Part shown: piece by piece, positions 22,789 through 57,617 of the stretch
Position numbering within the stretch: position 1 is the stretch's first letter
Layout: each line of letters opens with the position of its first letter
From: Bacteroidetes bacterium GWF2_33_16
Lineage (GTDB): Bacteria > Bacteroidota > Bacteroidia > Bacteroidales > UBA12077
Assembly: GCA_001768565.1 (NCBI GenBank)
Contig: MEOE01000028.1
Span: 62,001-126,000, forward strand
Length of the DNA stretch: 64,000 bases
Direction of reading: 5' to 3'
Translations under genes and position numbers: made by a program
The notes under the pieces: model-generated
What the model was told of the DNA's origin: nothing
Databases searched by the model: none
The model's input: only the letters and a program-made list of their open reading frames with translations

Positions 22789-22839
22789 TCGTTTATAGAT
22801 GTTGAAAACGGTTATAAAAGTATTGATTTTTTATCTCTT

Positions 22840-26434: not shown

Positions 26435-26482
26435 TCCCGCCCCAATAATTCCCGAAAGCTTTCGGGACGGGAACTATCGGGA
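26435..26482. repeat. CCCGAAAGCTTTCGGG palindromic repeat, copy 1
   Basis: A perfect 18-bp core palindrome TCCCGAAAGCTTTCGGGA sits between outer CCCG-rich arms (ATCCCGCCCC and ACTATCGGGA). Related copies are at 35303-35350, 37471-37527 (inside legC) and 56240-56287. It is preceded by a fragment of the CACTAAG family (TTAGACACTAA, 26423-26433). Confidence 0.8.
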
Positions 26483-32829: not shown

Positions 32830-35208
32830 ATGGACCCAATCCAACAACCCCCTTACCCCCAATACAATTATCAGGAGGAAAGCATAGATATTAAAAAGTA
32901 CCTTTTTAAGTTTTTATTTAACTGGTACTGGTTTGCACTGGCGCTGGCGCTGGCATTAACTGTGGCATATATGGTAAACCGATACTCCGAACCTACCTAC
33001 ACCATTTCGTCTTCTATTATTGTTACCGATAAGCAAAGCGAAATGGCCAGTGTGGAATCTATTATTGAGGAGCTGGGCATGAGCCGACGTAACCGTAAAG
33101 CGGTGGTGGAGAACGAGATTACAATTTTAAAATCGTACAAGCTGGCACGAATGGCCATTGAAAAGCTCGATTTTGAAGTTACCTATGTAGCTGTTGGCCG
33201 CAGGGAAATTGTTGAATCTAAAACTTATACACGCAGCCCTTTCGTTGTACTTATTGACACTACACACAAACAATTGTATAATTACCCGGTAAATGTTAAA
33301 ATATTATCGAACGAAAAATACCTGCTCGAAATAAACGACAAGTACGATATAAAAAAAACACTGAAATTTGGCGAAACATTTGAATCCGAGATATTTAAAT
33401 TTACAATTAACTTGCGCAACCCCGAAAGCTTTATTTACAACAAAAACCAGTCGAACAAATTCTATTTCTTTATAAACGATATAAATGCGCTGTCTAAAAA
33501 TTACCGAAGCCGCTTAAATATTGATGTAAATGATGAAAAAGGATCTATCTTAAATTTAAGCATAAGCGGTTTTGTGCCCGAACAATTGGCCGATTATTTA
33601 AATACCTTATCAGATGTTTATATCCAGAGCAATTTGGATGAAAAAAACCTGCGTACTTCCAATACCCTCCAATTTATCGATGAGCAAATGAAAAGCATTG
33701 TGGATTCGTTGAATATAGCCGAACTCAACCTGCAAAATTTCAGGGTACAAAACCAGGTATTTGATTTGAGTCAAAAGGGGAAACTGATTTTCGATAAATT
33801 GAATACATTACAAACTGAAAAGAACAAACTGGAATTGCAAAAACGGTATTATGTATATATTGAAGGATATCTTGCAAGCTCAGAAAATTACGAACCGGTT
33901 ATTGCCCCATCGGTTATGGCAGTTGAAAACATTACTCTTCAAAATAGCATCAATATTATAAACAATTTGATTTCCGAACGGAACAGGATCGCTTACACAG
34001 CCGAAGGTATTACACCCAATCGAATTATTCTTGAACAACAGATTGCCGATCTTAAGAAAGCATTAAAAAAAGAAATATCCTCATCTGTTAGTACCAGCCA
34101 AATAGCATTAAAGCAATACAATGAACAAATAAACGAAATTGAACAGGAAATACAATCTCTCCCTGTAAATGAGCGCCAGTTGGTAAATATTGAGCGGGTA
34201 TTTAAGTTAAACAACGATTTATACACCTTTTTACTCGAAAAACGAGCCGAAGCAGGAATTACCAAGGCTTCGAACATTGCCGACAACAAAATACTCGATA
34301 TCGCACGACCTGAAAATGCTGGACAGATTAAACCCAAACGTTCCATGAACTACTTAATTGCTTTGGTTTTGGGTTTAGGCATACCCGGATTTATTATTTT
34401 GCTTACCGAATTTTTTAATACCAAAATTGAAGAAAAGAAAGACATTGAAAACAATACCAAAATTCCAATTATTGGAACCATCGGCCACAACGAAACCCAA
34501 AGCGACCTTGCGGTTTATATCGACCCAAAATCGAGTCTGGCCGAATCATTCCGGAGTTTACGCACCAATTTGCAATACATACTGCGCGAAAAAGAACAAA
34601 AGGTAGTTATGATTACTTCTACCATTAGTGGCGAAGGAAAAACATTTGCGGCTATTAACCTGGCATCAATTATTTGTATGACTGGTAAAAAAGTATTGCT
34701 TGTGGGTTTGGATTTGCGTAAACCCGGATTGCACCGTGTATTCGATATAGCTAATGAAACCGGAATAAGCACCTATTTAATCGGACAATCAGACTATGCA
34801 TCAGTATTAAAATCTACCATAATCGAAAATCTCTGGCTGGCACCTTCGGGTCCTGTTCCTCCAAATCCGGCAGAATTGATTGAAACAGAACAAATGATAC
34901 AGTTTTTTGAACAAGCAAAAAAGGATTTTGATTACATTATTGTAGATACACCTCCCGTGGCTATAGTTACCGACGCTTTGCTGGTAAGTACCTTTGCTGA
35001 TGCTAATATTTTTATGATACGACAGAAATATTCAAGCAAACATGTATTTGAACTTATCAATTCGATTTACGAAACAAAAAAAATGACTCACATGAATATT
35101 TTGGTAAATGATATAAAAATTCCAAAATACTATGGGTATGGATACAATTATGGATATGGGTATGGGTATGGATATGGTTATGGGTACGGATATAAAGATA
35201 AAAGATAA
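32830..35208 (+). CDS. Wzc-type polysaccharide co-polymerase and tyrosine autokinase
   Basis: The 792-residue protein has a cytosolic N-terminus, TM1 (about 30-48, WYWFALALALALTVAYMV), a Wzz domain, a long coiled-coil region, a GNVR-type segment (PVNERQLVNIERVFKLNND) and TM2 (about 500-520). The cytosolic BY-kinase follows with Walker A SGEGKT, Walker A' VLLVGLDLRKPG and Walker B YIIVDTPP. The tail is an almost pure Tyr-Gly run (GYGYNYGYGYGYGY, then GYGYGYKDKR) instead of the usual Tyr cluster. It should control chain length and export with the Wza-type lipoprotein. Confidence 0.93.
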   Translation: MDPIQQPPYPQYNYQEESIDIKKYLFKFLFNWYWFALALALALTVAYMVNRYSEPTYTISSSIIVTDKQSEMASVESIIEELGMSRRNRKAVVENEITILKSYKLARMAIEKLDFEVTYVAVGRREIVESKTYTRSPFVVLIDTTHKQLYNYPVNVKILSNEKYLLEINDKYDIKKTLKFGETFESEIFKFTINLRNPESFIYNKNQSNKFYFFINDINALSKNYRSRLNIDVNDEKGSILNLSISGFVPEQLADYLNTLSDVYIQSNLDEKNLRTSNTLQFIDEQMKSIVDSLNIAELNLQNFRVQNQVFDLSQKGKLIFDKLNTLQTEKNKLELQKRYYVYIEGYLASSENYEPVIAPSVMAVENITLQNSINIINNLISERNRIAYTAEGITPNRIILEQQIADLKKALKKEISSSVSTSQIALKQYNEQINEIEQEIQSLPVNERQLVNIERVFKLNNDLYTFLLEKRAEAGITKASNIADNKILDIARPENAGQIKPKRSMNYLIALVLGLGIPGFIILLTEFFNTKIEEKKDIENNTKIPIIGTIGHNETQSDLAVYIDPKSSLAESFRSLRTNLQYILREKEQKVVMITSTISGEGKTFAAINLASIICMTGKKVLLVGLDLRKPGLHRVFDIANETGISTYLIGQSDYASVLKSTIIENLWLAPSGPVPPNPAELIETEQMIQFFEQAKKDFDYIIVDTPPVAIVTDALLVSTFADANIFMIRQKYSSKHVFELINSIYETKKMTHMNILVNDIKIPKYYGYGYNYGYGYGYGYGYGYGYKDKR

Positions 35209-35209
35209 T

Positions 35210-35350
35210 CTTGCCTGTCGGCAGACAGGAAGGAAAAAGATACAAGCCTGCCTGCCGGCAAGGCAAGTAAAAAGCTAAAGCCTAACAGCTAAGATCAGTC
35301 ACGCCCGAAAGCTCCCGTCCCGAAAGCTTTCGGGAATTATCGGGACGGGA
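35210..35350. repeat. Cluster of three palindromic repeats before legB
   Basis: TTGCCTGTCGGCAGACAGGA (35211-35230) and GCCTGCCTGCCGGCAAGGC (35246-35264) belong to the CCTGCCGGCAGG family, and 35303-35350 is a CCCGAAAGCTTTCGGG-family copy with arms GCTCCCGTCCCG and ATTATCGGGACGGGA. A short AAGCT word array lies between (35271-35291). The cluster fills the wzc-legB gap and could attenuate transcription into the legionaminic block. Confidence 0.8.
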
Positions 35351-35363
35351 TAATAAAAATAAC

Positions 35364-36563
35364 ATGCTTCATTTAATAGGCCGAAACAAAGAATTATTTA
35401 CCGAAGATGTAAACCAAAACGAAAAGGAACTACAAAAAATTGTTTCCGGTTCGCGGTTTTTAGTTATTGGTGGTGCCGGTTCGATAGGGCAGGCAGTAAC
35501 CAAAGAGATTTTTAAACGAAATCCGAAAAAACTGCATGTGGTGGATATTTCTGAAAATAACATGGTGGAACTGGTTCGGGATATCCGCAGCTCATTAGCA
35601 TATATTGATGGCGATTTTAAAACCTTCGCATTGGATGTTGGTTCTGTTGAGTACGATGCGTTTATTGAATCAGACGGAATGTACGATTATGTTTTAAATT
35701 TAGCAGCATTAAAACATGTACGTAGCGAAAAAGATCCGTTTACCCTCATGCGAATGATCGATGTAAATATTTTTAATACAGATAAAACCATACAGCAATC
35801 CATAAAAAAAGGTGTAAAAAAATATTTCTGTGTTTCAACCGATAAAGCAGCAAACCCTGTAAATATGATGGGTGCATCGAAACGAATTATGGAAATGTTT
35901 GTACACCGCCGAAGCCAAAATATTGATGTGTCCATGGCACGATTTGCCAATGTAGCTTTTTCTGATGGCTCGCTGTTGCATGGTTTCGACCAGCGAATAA
36001 AAAAACAGCAACCCATTGTAGCACCAAACGATGTAAAACGCTATTTTGTGATACCCAAAGAATCGGGAGAACTCTGTTTAATGTCCTGCATATTTGGCAA
36101 AAACAGGGATATCTTTTTTCCCAAACTTAATGAAAATTTACATTTAATCACTTTTGCCGAAATTGCCGAAAAATATGTAAGAAATTTGGGTTATGAACCA
36201 TACCTTTGCCAAAGCGAAGATGAAGCCAGAAACTTCTTTAAAGACGCTAATAACCAATCACCAATCACTAATCACCAGAAATGGCCTTGTTTTTTCTCCG
36301 AAAGCAACACCACCGGCGAAAAAGATTTTGAAGAGTTTTATACAGCAAACGAAGTGCTCGATCTGGAGACTTTTAAAAATCTTGGTATTATAAAAAATGA
36401 GCTTACTTTTGATAACAATAAACTGGAATATTTTACTCATACCATCCGAAAAATGAAAGAAAACCGAAAGTGGGAAAAAACCGAATTGGTAAGTTTGTTT
36501 AAAGAGATGATTCCGGATTTTTTGCATAAGGAAACAGGGAAGTATTTAGATAGTAAAATGTAA
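35364..36563 (+). CDS. legB: UDP-GlcNAc 4,6-dehydratase, LegB type
   Basis: The extended SDR of 399 residues has the Rossmann loop VIGGAGSIGQAV, DISENNMVELVRDIRS, NLAALKHVRSEKDPF, and the active-site region VSTDKAANPVNMMGASKRIM with the T-D-K and M-x-x-x-K signature of PglF/WbpM-like dehydratases. It starts legionaminic acid synthesis by making the 4-keto-6-deoxy sugar. A low-complexity stretch near residues 296-305 (NNQSPITNHQ) is encoded by a repeat array and looks inserted. The stop overlaps the legC start (TAATG). Confidence 0.85.
   Translation: MLHLIGRNKELFTEDVNQNEKELQKIVSGSRFLVIGGAGSIGQAVTKEIFKRNPKKLHVVDISENNMVELVRDIRSSLAYIDGDFKTFALDVGSVEYDAFIESDGMYDYVLNLAALKHVRSEKDPFTLMRMIDVNIFNTDKTIQQSIKKGVKKYFCVSTDKAANPVNMMGASKRIMEMFVHRRSQNIDVSMARFANVAFSDGSLLHGFDQRIKKQQPIVAPNDVKRYFVIPKESGELCLMSCIFGKNRDIFFPKLNENLHLITFAEIAEKYVRNLGYEPYLCQSEDEARNFFKDANNQSPITNHQKWPCFFSESNTTGEKDFEEFYTANEVLDLETFKNLGIIKNELTFDNNKLEYFTHTIRKMKENRKWEKTELVSLFKEMIPDFLHKETGKYLDSKM
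36249..36279. repeat. AATCACCA word array inside legB
   Basis: The bases read as three to four imperfect copies of (A)ATCACCA/ACTAATCACCA and resemble the intergenic AACCAGTAACTAG array at 32709. They are translated in frame as NNQSPITNHQ. Confidence 0.7.
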
Positions 36564-37780
36564 TGGAGAAGTATAAAGAAATAATAGACTTTATAAGAAA
36601 GTTATACAACCAACCTGACGGTTTTATACCCTTGCATGCCCCTGTATTTAATGGCAACGAAAAAAAATACCTACTCGACTGTATCGATTCAACCTTTGTT
36701 TCGAGTGTCGGAAAATATGTTGATTTGTTTGAAGAAAAAATAGCCGAATATACCGGAGCAAAAAAAGCGGTTGCTTGTGTAAACGGAACAAATGCCCTGT
36801 ATTTAGCACTAAAACTGGTTGGTGTTGAGGCAAACACCGAAGTAATAACCCAACCCTTAACCTTTATTGCCACAGCAAACGCAATTGCATACACAGGAGC
36901 TCAACCAATTTTTCTGGATGTTGACAAAGATACCTTAGGCCTATCACCCCAGGCACTTAAAAATTGGCTAAAAAACAATGTAAAAATCGAAACGCTTAAC
37001 TCGAAACCCATAACCATAAATAAATTAACCAAAAAACCAATTTCCGCTTGTGTTCCCATGCATACCTTCGGGCATCCCTGTAGAATTGATGAGATTTTAG
37101 AAATTTGTACTCAATACAATATACCCGTTGTTGAAGATGCTGCCGAAAGTTTGGGAAGTTTTTACAAAAAACAACATACCGGAACATTTGGGGAAATAGG
37201 TATTTTAAGTTTTAACGGAAACAAAATTTTGACTACCGGTGGAGGGGGAATGCTTTTATTTAAAGACGAAGAATTGGCAAAAAAAGCAAAACATTTAACA
37301 ACACAAGCAAAAATACCACATCCATGGGAATTTGCCCACGATGAAATAGGGTACAATTACCGTATGCCCAATATTAATGCCGCATTGGGTTTAGCTCAAC
37401 TAGAACAGCTCCCTGCTTTTCTAAAATCTAAACGCCAAACCGCCCAAGCCTATAAAGATTTTTTTGGTTGTCACCCTGATCCCGATAGCTCCCTAAAGCT
37501 TTCGGGACGAGACGTCGAAGGGTCAACCTCAACCTTAACCTTTATACCCGAACCCCAAAACTCACAATCCAACTACTGGTTAAATTGCATATTGTTACAA
37601 AACAGAACAGAGCGGGATGCTTTTCTAAAATACAGTAATGAAAATGGAATAATGACCAGACCGGCATGGACTTTAATGAATAAAATGGATCTGTTTAAAA
37701 ATTGCCCGACAGATGGTTTAGAAAATGCACTCTCGCTTGCAAAAAGAATTGTTAATTTACCAAGTAGTGTAAAAATATGA
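36563..37780 (+). CDS. legC: LegC-family PLP aminotransferase with an inserted repeat-encoded segment
   Basis: A DegT-type enzyme of the LegC group (IPLHAPVFNGNEKKYLLDCI, AVACVNGTNALYLALKL, TFIATANAIAYTGAQPIFLD, VVEDAAESLGSFY). The PLP lysine is expected in SFNGNKILTTGGGGML. It aminates C4 of the LegB product. Near residues 303-325, between AYKDFFG and TFIPEPQNSQSNYWLNCI, about 20 extra residues (CHPDPDSSLKLSGRDVEGS) are encoded by a palindromic repeat seen elsewhere between genes. The frame is kept and the segment lies in a likely surface loop, so the enzyme may still work. It overlaps the next gene by 4 bp. Confidence 0.88.
   Translation: MEKYKEIIDFIRKLYNQPDGFIPLHAPVFNGNEKKYLLDCIDSTFVSSVGKYVDLFEEKIAEYTGAKKAVACVNGTNALYLALKLVGVEANTEVITQPLTFIATANAIAYTGAQPIFLDVDKDTLGLSPQALKNWLKNNVKIETLNSKPITINKLTKKPISACVPMHTFGHPCRIDEILEICTQYNIPVVEDAAESLGSFYKKQHTGTFGEIGILSFNGNKILTTGGGGMLLFKDEELAKKAKHLTTQAKIPHPWEFAHDEIGYNYRMPNINAALGLAQLEQLPAFLKSKRQTAQAYKDFFGCHPDPDSSLKLSGRDVEGSTSTLTFIPEPQNSQSNYWLNCILLQNRTERDAFLKYSNENGIMTRPAWTLMNKMDLFKNCPTDGLENALSLAKRIVNLPSSVKI
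37471..37527. repeat. CCCGAAAGCTTTCGGG-family repeat inside legC
   Basis: It reads CACCCTGATCCCGATAGCTC, then CCTAAAGCTTTCGGGACGAG and ACGTCGAAGGGTCAACC. The core matches the intergenic copies at 26435, 35303 and 56240, and CACCCTGA...TCGAAGGGT supplies outer arms. Its length has kept the reading frame. Confidence 0.8.
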
Positions 37781-56196: not shown

Positions 56197-56239
56197 AGAG
56201 ACAATTACCAGTGATCTGTGATCTAACTGTGATCTGTGA

Positions 56240-56287
56240 TCCCGTCCCGATAACTCCCGAAAGCTTTCGGGACGGGAGCTATCGGGA
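56240..56287. repeat. CCCGAAAGCTTTCGGG palindromic repeat, copy near DUF354
   Basis: TCCCGTCCCGATAACTCCCG, then AAAGCTTTCGGGACGGGAGC and TATCGGGA. The core and both outer arms match the copies at 26435 and 35303. A GTGATCTGTGATC word array precedes it (56214-56239). Confidence 0.85.
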
Positions 56288-56872: not shown

Positions 56873-57137
56873 CCCCCCACCCCCTAAAGGGGGGCTTCCC
56901 TTTAGGGAATAAAGGGCGAGCGCGGGAAAAGAGTTGGTTTTACAGTACGTGAAGAAAGTTGTGAAACTTGTTTTGAATATTATAAGATAATAATATCCTT
57001 CGCTGCCCCCACCCCCTAAAGGGGGGCTTCCCTTTAGGGAATAAAGGGCGAGCGCGGGAAAAGAGTTGGTTTTACAGTATGTGAAGAAAGTTGTGAAACT
57101 TGTTTTGAATATTATAAGATAATAATATCCTTCGCTG
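56873..57137. repeat. Two tandem 132-bp copies of the DUF559-flanking repeat
   Basis: The unit begins with CCCCACCCCCTAAAGGGGGG and CTTCCCTTTAGGGAATAAAG, GGCGAGCGCGGGAAA, then an AT-rich tail AGTTGGTTTTACAGTA to AATAATATCCTTCGCTG. The two copies are nearly identical (one visible substitution, C/T, near 56948/57080). A third, diverged copy starts at 57136 (CCCCCAGCCCCTGAGGGGGC) and ends with TTTAGGGAATAAAAGGGCGC at about 57213. Confidence 0.9.
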
Positions 57138-57353: not shown

Positions 57354-57617
57354 TATAATAGATTTGAGATGTGAGATATGAGCTTGCCTGCCATGCCTAG
57401 CGGCAGGTTAACCGGTAGGTAGGTATCAAGACAATAAACAATAATCAAACTCCAAATTTCAATTATCGATTATCAAAAATCATTAATTCCGAAAGCTTTA
57501 GAGAGATGTCGGGAGCGAACCGCAAAGCAGCGAGAAAAAGACAGAAGGCTTTAGACATGTAATTTTAAACATTTAATTGTTTTTTGTGTTTCTATGTTAT
57601 TATTAAAAAATGAAAAA

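Follow-up and report, generated by a model that had tools for sequence, protein, structure and literature searches.

How a palindromic repeat has come to lie, in frame, within a gene for a sugar aminotransferase is the question raised by the legC-like gene at 36563..37780 (+ strand) of the window, the whole stretch of 64 000 nucleotides of DNA analysed here (contig 28, 62001-126000, of the 4.33-Mb genome of an uncultured Bacteroidota bacterium). The gene encodes a LegC-family (DegT/DnrJ) protein of 405 aa, which in a profile search matches TIGR04181 over residues 22-402 (E 9.1e-163), and it is followed by genes for a NeuD-like acetyltransferase and a NeuB-like synthase, a neighbourhood that is read as a cluster of the legionaminic/sialic-acid type. 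The original prediction held that a segment of legC belongs to a repeat family found between genes, and the match itself is borne out, as CCCTAAAGCTTTCGGG at 37491-37506 is one mismatch from the 16-mer CCCGAAAGCTTTCGGG, which occurs exactly at 26451-26466, 35319-35334 and 56256-56271 of the window. Together with a weak fifth match at 57488 (three mismatches), the window has five matches at up to three mismatches; 100 shuffles averaged 0.12 and never gave five. In its own genome as a whole, nine copies are exact and 22 have up to two mismatches, and a reversed control has none. However, the family covers only the inner part, 37480-37512, of what has been inserted. The insertion into legC stands, given the match to the genome's family, the frame and the short loops of related enzymes, but its true span, 37466..37528 (+ strand), is slightly longer than was predicted, and the outer arms belong to a second repeat.

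Across 37466-37528 the order is GGTTGTCACCCTGA TCCCGATAGC TCCCTAAAGCTTTCGGGA CGAGA CGTCGAAGGGTCAACC, and the encoded peptide, GCHPDPDSSLKLSGRDVEGST (LegC residues 302-322), adds some 20 residues to the protein and leaves the ORF uninterrupted, as had been claimed, up to a full-length product of the TIGR04181 family. The outermost elements, all on the + strand as are those within, are the left arm GGTTGTCACCCTGA at 37466..37479 and the right arm CGTCGAAGGGTCAACC at 37513..37528, which pair as GGTTGTCACCCTGA / TCGAAGGGTCAACC; their loop holds TCCCGATAGC[TCCCTAAAGCTTTCGGGA]CGAGA, in which TCCCGATAGC (37480..37489) is the left part of a first 18-mer, TCCCTAAAGCTTTCGGGA (37490..37507) is a second 18-mer, one mismatch from TCCCGAAAGCTTTCGGGA and read as S-L-K-L-S-G, and CGAGA (37508-37512), after the second, completes the remains of the first. 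We read this loop content as two 18-bp palindromes that have decayed. The predicted DNA fold of the segment consists of an outer stem and an inner hairpin, with a folding energy of -17.2 kcal/mol (z -4.3) that none of 200 shuffles equalled. The composite TCCCGATAGC[18-mer]CGGGA recurs at locus L176 and in the QueG gene of genome G015, and in a slightly altered form, TCCCGATGGC[18-mer]CTGGA, at C2:8024; the recurring composite is one 18-mer in the centre of another. Likewise, the intergenic copies are nests, namely the nested palindromes around CCCGAAAGCTTTCGGG at 26435..26482, the copy at 35304..35351, which lies between an ORF ending at 35208 and one starting at 35364 and is the inverse of the third (96 % complementary), and the nested unit at 56239..56287, none of the three being assigned a strand. 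The expectation that legC holds a simple copy of the intergenic unit thus gave way to two repeats, nested as a decayed composite. The outer arms fall outside the CCCGAAAG family, and a second copy with both arms is absent from the 284 kb searched of the window's own genome; the pattern CACCCTGA N{4,34} TCGAAGGGT has no match in that genome, the loop in legC being itself one base over the allowed maximum. Locus L388, from another family of the class, has a repeat of the same kind as the outer one in legC, with arms ACCCTTCGACA / TCAGGGT and a loop occupied by the 18-mer. Broadly defined, the REPs may include the outer repeat of legC, and Rfam gave no match to the window at the gathering score.

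For comparison with relatives, 80 LegC loci were fetched and 43 aligned, and a tree was made from 21 of these together with the window and genome G010. At the insert, the window LegC has a loop of 25 residues against a median of 6 in the 43 homologues, 36 of which have nine or fewer, in agreement with the prediction of a short loop in related enzymes. L060, the sister of the window LegC in the tree (support 96/89), has 6 residues, and L063 has 12, with no match to the 16-mer or the palindrome. Among the 43, a 16-mer match at up to three mismatches is found only in L059, where GGTTGTCACCCTGAGC[ATGTCATCCTGAGC[CCGCCTGTCCGGCAGGCAGG]CTCGTCGAAGGGT]GTCGAAGGGTCAACC, followed by CCCCGAAAGCTTTCGGGG, lies at the same point of the gene, all of it in frame; this nest of palindromes differs from that of the window. 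L059 is apparently the same contig as L009, judged partly by shared inserts, and their legC carries the same two arms as the window's. The outer repeat is hence common to the window legC and L059 and absent from the closer relative L060, the joining fork being weak (89/57). As to whether the same residues are present in homologues that lack the repeat, GCHP was found among the 43 aligned sequences only in L059, which carries the same DNA arms. The LegC of L009/L059 has two more in-frame inserts in other loops, one CCTGTCTGCCGATCAGGCAGG-like and one a hairpin, TTCACCCCGTGAAATTCGTGG...TTTCACAGGGT; the first of those other loops has, in L010/L063, a TCAACC-type simple repeat instead.

It could be supposed that this is an ordinary, old LegC loop that resembles the repeat by chance, and several homologues do have a long loop that is free of the 16-mer (28 residues in L068, 18 in L062 and L071, 17 in L075). 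Such an origin is very improbable, given a match to the genome's family far above chance, a strong palindrome, the different palindromes that L059 has at this point and the in-frame presence of the 18-mer in further conserved genes. In an AlphaFold2 model built with 33 sequences (mean pLDDT 87.2), the insert is flanked by a helix and a strand and, at residues 304-322, is one of three stretches with pLDDT below 50; the others are residues 45-47 and 248-265, the latter being equally low. On this model the insert is taken for a disordered surface loop, with the caveat that few aligned sequences cover it, which may partly lower its score. We infer that LegC still works as an enzyme with the insert, and a function for the insert is, in our judgement, unlikely; the copy in legC looks like an old, decayed nest within a tolerant loop.

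The extent of the 18-mer was defined on a genus sample of 133 exact places (44 + 89), of which the analysis covered 116 that were distinct and had flanks of 40 bases; 46 of these were set aside for having a flank at least 60 % like another's, leaving 70 unrelated sites. The base pair adjoining the 16-mer is T-A in 61 of the 70 and C-G in five, and the next pair out is complementary in 11, against 19.7 expected; the unit is therefore an 18-bp palindrome. Within the class, TCCCGAWAGCTWTCGGGA is present in 73 of 296 genomes and 51 of 166 genera, with up to 31 copies per genome, and its reversed control has no match in any of the 296. Such a spread over genera, together with a perfect symmetry that includes the end pair, would suit a dimeric binding protein, and the 18-mer might accordingly be a protein-binding or regulatory site under selection, and not mobile at all. 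This is improbable, however, as the 18-mer sits in coding sequence and in the loops of terminator-like structures and of other repeats with no common neighbour seen, decays in place (as in the RlmF gene of the window's own genome, G000) and varies from no copies to 31 between genomes.

Other repeats were observed alongside. Two tandem copies of 132 bases, 99 % identical, lie at 56874-57137 amid many others, and a 44-base AT-rich repeat of the CACTTAGACACTAAG type has five copies in the window, at 22838, 23958, 32198, 60389 and 60874; the 18-mer at C23:48082 is within a stretch that looks similar to it. At position 1929 of L154 (G000:C14:237428), the 18-mer is exactly central in a perfect 17-bp inverted repeat, one arm of which resembles a gene start (ATGGTAGATGCGCAAAG), as if copied inversely beside the palindrome.

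Alignment with relatives had been proposed as the way to find an empty site in legC, and relatives with short loops were indeed found, but the great variability of the loop left no clean insertion boundary. The same 18-mer gives cleaner ones in QueG, in RlmF and in a relative of proline racemase, where filled and empty sites also bear out the claim that the family moves or is copied. In QueG, for which 13 of 24 loci were aligned codon by codon and all 24 placed in a tree, the empty sequence GAT CAG TCC ATA AAA (G017) corresponds to GAT CA[TCCCGATAGCTATCGGGA]A AAA in G004, six bases of the empty allele being gone. In G015 and G011, further palindromes are nested inside the 18-mer, G011 seems to retain more of the old site than G004, and G010 has a similar, altered insert with its register shifted. 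The site is empty in G002 and others, and G002 is sister to the filled G004 (95/92), which requires independent gains or recombination. Odd residues are found at the insert position in G009 and G014. In the proline racemase relative, AAA GAC GGT GAT GAA (G012, empty) corresponds to AAA GA[18-mer]T GAA (G017, filled), and all six relatives aligned with G017, G012 among them, are empty (7 of 11 loci aligned). In RlmF, TTA AAA GAT CAG (G013, empty) corresponds to TTA [18-mer] GAC CAG with an exact copy in G001; the copy in G000 is decayed, with two changes, and nine others, including G013, are empty. The 18-mer hence replaces three to six bases, for net in-frame gains of 12, 12 and 15 in QueG, the proline racemase relative and RlmF, respectively, and no target-site duplication was seen at these three sites. 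Since the empty sites were taken from other species, small deletions after insertion would look the same as replacement at insertion. Natural pairs of enzymes with and without small in-frame inserts are now supplied.

In-frame 18-mers are also carried by ORFs for an HATPase (one site, two genomes), a UDP-GlcNAc 2-epimerase (WecB), HsdM, a GT28-type glycosyltransferase and a putative ribonucleotide reductase (one site, four genomes; Pfam score 26.7 against a cut-off of 28), and by ORFs in L205 and L221 that match no Pfam family. Copies of the ATAG form in named genes are read in the PDSYR frame, and L378 and L384 (one peptide, two genomes) use the PIAIG frame; given the latter, no claim of a preferred reading frame is made.

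The flanks of the 18-mer point to where it lands. At the 70 unrelated genus sites they pair with a mean of -7.66 kcal/mol, against -5.54 (sd 0.21) for swapped flanks, with none of 5000 permutations as low, and pairing of -10 kcal/mol or below is found at 16 sites against 1.5 expected. These duplex energies were adopted after scoring by local alignment, in which 8 of 67 reached a score of at least 10 against a fraction of 0.0125 of swapped pairs. When the palindrome is left out and the insertion point is ranked among the split points of its own neighbourhood, which was done for 69 of the 70 sites, one being too short, 15 fall in the best 2 % against 1.4 expected (KS p 1e-4). Just 26 of the 69 are in the best 20 %, and many copies therefore lie outside any recognisable hairpin loop. 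Sites from the class comprised the loci of a class-wide pattern search and 47 stretches among the matches listed; a first sample of 31 was enlarged, the first included, to 82, 65 of them unrelated. For these 65, two of 5000 permutations were as low and the KS p was 0.003, with a slight excess in the best 2 % of split points (3 of 65 against 1.3 expected); the first 31 alone had given 13 of 5000 permutations and a split-point test that was not significant (KS p 0.10). In L208, one kind of REP occurs with the loop GTAA and also with the 18-mer as its loop, and L210, L214, L224, L229 and L233 resemble intrinsic terminators whose loops contain the 18-mer. The preference for hairpin loops is real but partial, and it is weaker across the class than in the genus. 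Such a preference would explain the origin of nested repeats and the variation in the loops of terminators and REPs.

Any explanation has to accommodate the composite anatomy, the intact frame, the filled and empty sites in other genes and the excess of hairpin loops. The segment in legC probably consists of palindromic repeats inserted, in the manner of a Russian doll, into a surface loop, and it involves an 18-mer whose copying favours hairpin loops. First in the nest would be a hairpin repeat (arms GGTTGTCACCCTGA / TCGAAGGGTCAACC) placed in a loop-coding stretch of legC; the loop of that hairpin would have come to hold a pair of mobile 18-bp palindromes from the TCCCGAWAGCTWTCGGGA family, one centred in the other, both having since decayed. 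The 18-mer would be copied to new places by swapping out a few target bases, without target duplication and with existing hairpin loops as preferred landing sites, and the survivors within genes would be those copies that keep the frame in tolerant loops. Copying may proceed by template switching at stalled hairpins and not by a dedicated transposase, the nascent strand perhaps using TCCCG/CGGGA to copy another hairpin before it returns; template switching would fit a short, duplication-free replacement, the preference for loops and self-nesting.

A different mover would be a RAYT, i.e. a Y1 HUH transposase of the IS200-like kind, with the 18-mer as its REP element; TnpA-REP is proposed to cut and paste GTAG REPs as single-stranded hairpins. 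The window's own genome has three PF01797 matches, and one or more occur in 18 of the 20 genus genomes; a truncated RAYT, L007 (C13:393384), carries and adjoins 18-mers, its frame at 1393-1725 (G000:C13) running into palindromic repeats of which one is the 18-mer; and REPs in frame inside tnpA-REP genes of subclass 2.4 are published (PMC6006769). On the other side, 31 of the 32 Y1_Tnp loci read, from 74 genus matches, have no 16-mer at up to two mismatches in the surrounding 1.5 kb or so, or as far as the contig reaches, and G013 (96 % complete) has four copies yet no PF01797 match. There is also no fixed foot, since at positions 2-5 to the left and right of the palindrome even the commonest base is found in no more than 33 of 70 sites. 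Two further RAYTs of the same genome, read through, precede other repeats: the Y1 transposase genes of L005 (1489-2140) and L006 (1312-1990) are followed by differing palindromic repeats (CCCCAGCCTAAAGGCTGGGG; GAGACGCAATGCATTGCGTCTC), and both loci are likely to be REPtrons. Linkage of the 18-mer to RAYTs is thus not supported, L007 keeps the idea alive, and movement by a RAYT is, on balance, rather doubtful. Returning to template switching, its strongest form, in which TCCCGAWAGCTWTCGGGA, a mobile palindrome of 18 bp, is self-contained and homes to hairpin tips, its own included, with no transposase of its own, is put forward tentatively, as a possibility that falls short of probable. If it is true, nests grow from the inside, genes are entered harmlessly where +12 or +15 bases keep the frame, and the unit is among the smallest mobile sequences known.

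Palindromes in frame within genes are already known, and as mover of the 18-mer family a RAYT would be the obvious candidate. The literature searched holds no match to two 16-mers and three REP strings and, within the limits of those searches, nothing closer on hairpin-loop homing or on nested palindromes of such repeats. Bacterial MITEs are small, non-coding, dispersed elements that sometimes form in-frame fusions (PMC10969869). The 18-mer is similarly small, dispersed and at times in frame within genes, but it differs in that it lacks a core enclosed by terminal repeats and shows no target duplication at the three comparable sites. GTAG/CGTC REPs are short, dispersed palindromes, mostly intergenic, with some intragenic and the frame intact (PMC3733652), and TnpA-REP subclass 2.4 is given as abundant in Cyanobacteria and Bacteroidetes (PMC6006769). 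The 18-mer is like them in being dispersed, short and partly intragenic without a frame break; unlike them, it is low in copy number and occupies the loops of other repeats. The GTAG-type tetranucleotide foot is missing beside the 18-mer at the 70 genus sites. Of copies flanking a RAYT gene, as would be expected in a REPtron, the 32 loci read of 74 gave one case, the truncated L007. CGTC REPs have a CGTC foot, a stem of 8-9 bp, a loop of 4-5 bases and an unpaired tail (PMC3733652). The 18-mer contains no CGTC; considering the tetranucleotide alone, there is a CGTC at 37513-37516, in the outer repeat of legC. A parallel in coding sequence is with the Rickettsia palindromic elements of Ogata, Claverie and colleagues, which are described as palindromic repeats of about 150 bp, hosted by Rickettsia and lying in frame within unrelated genes (PMC10969869, PMC3733652). 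The 18-mer likewise lies in frame within coding sequence, in LegC, QueG, RlmF and others; what sets it apart is a unit of 18 bp, a host range in the Bacteroidota and nests in hairpin loops. The invasion of proteins by palindromic DNA, best known from Rickettsia, is in this way extended to a broad set of other bacteria, and the unit involved is short enough for its mechanism to be tested directly.
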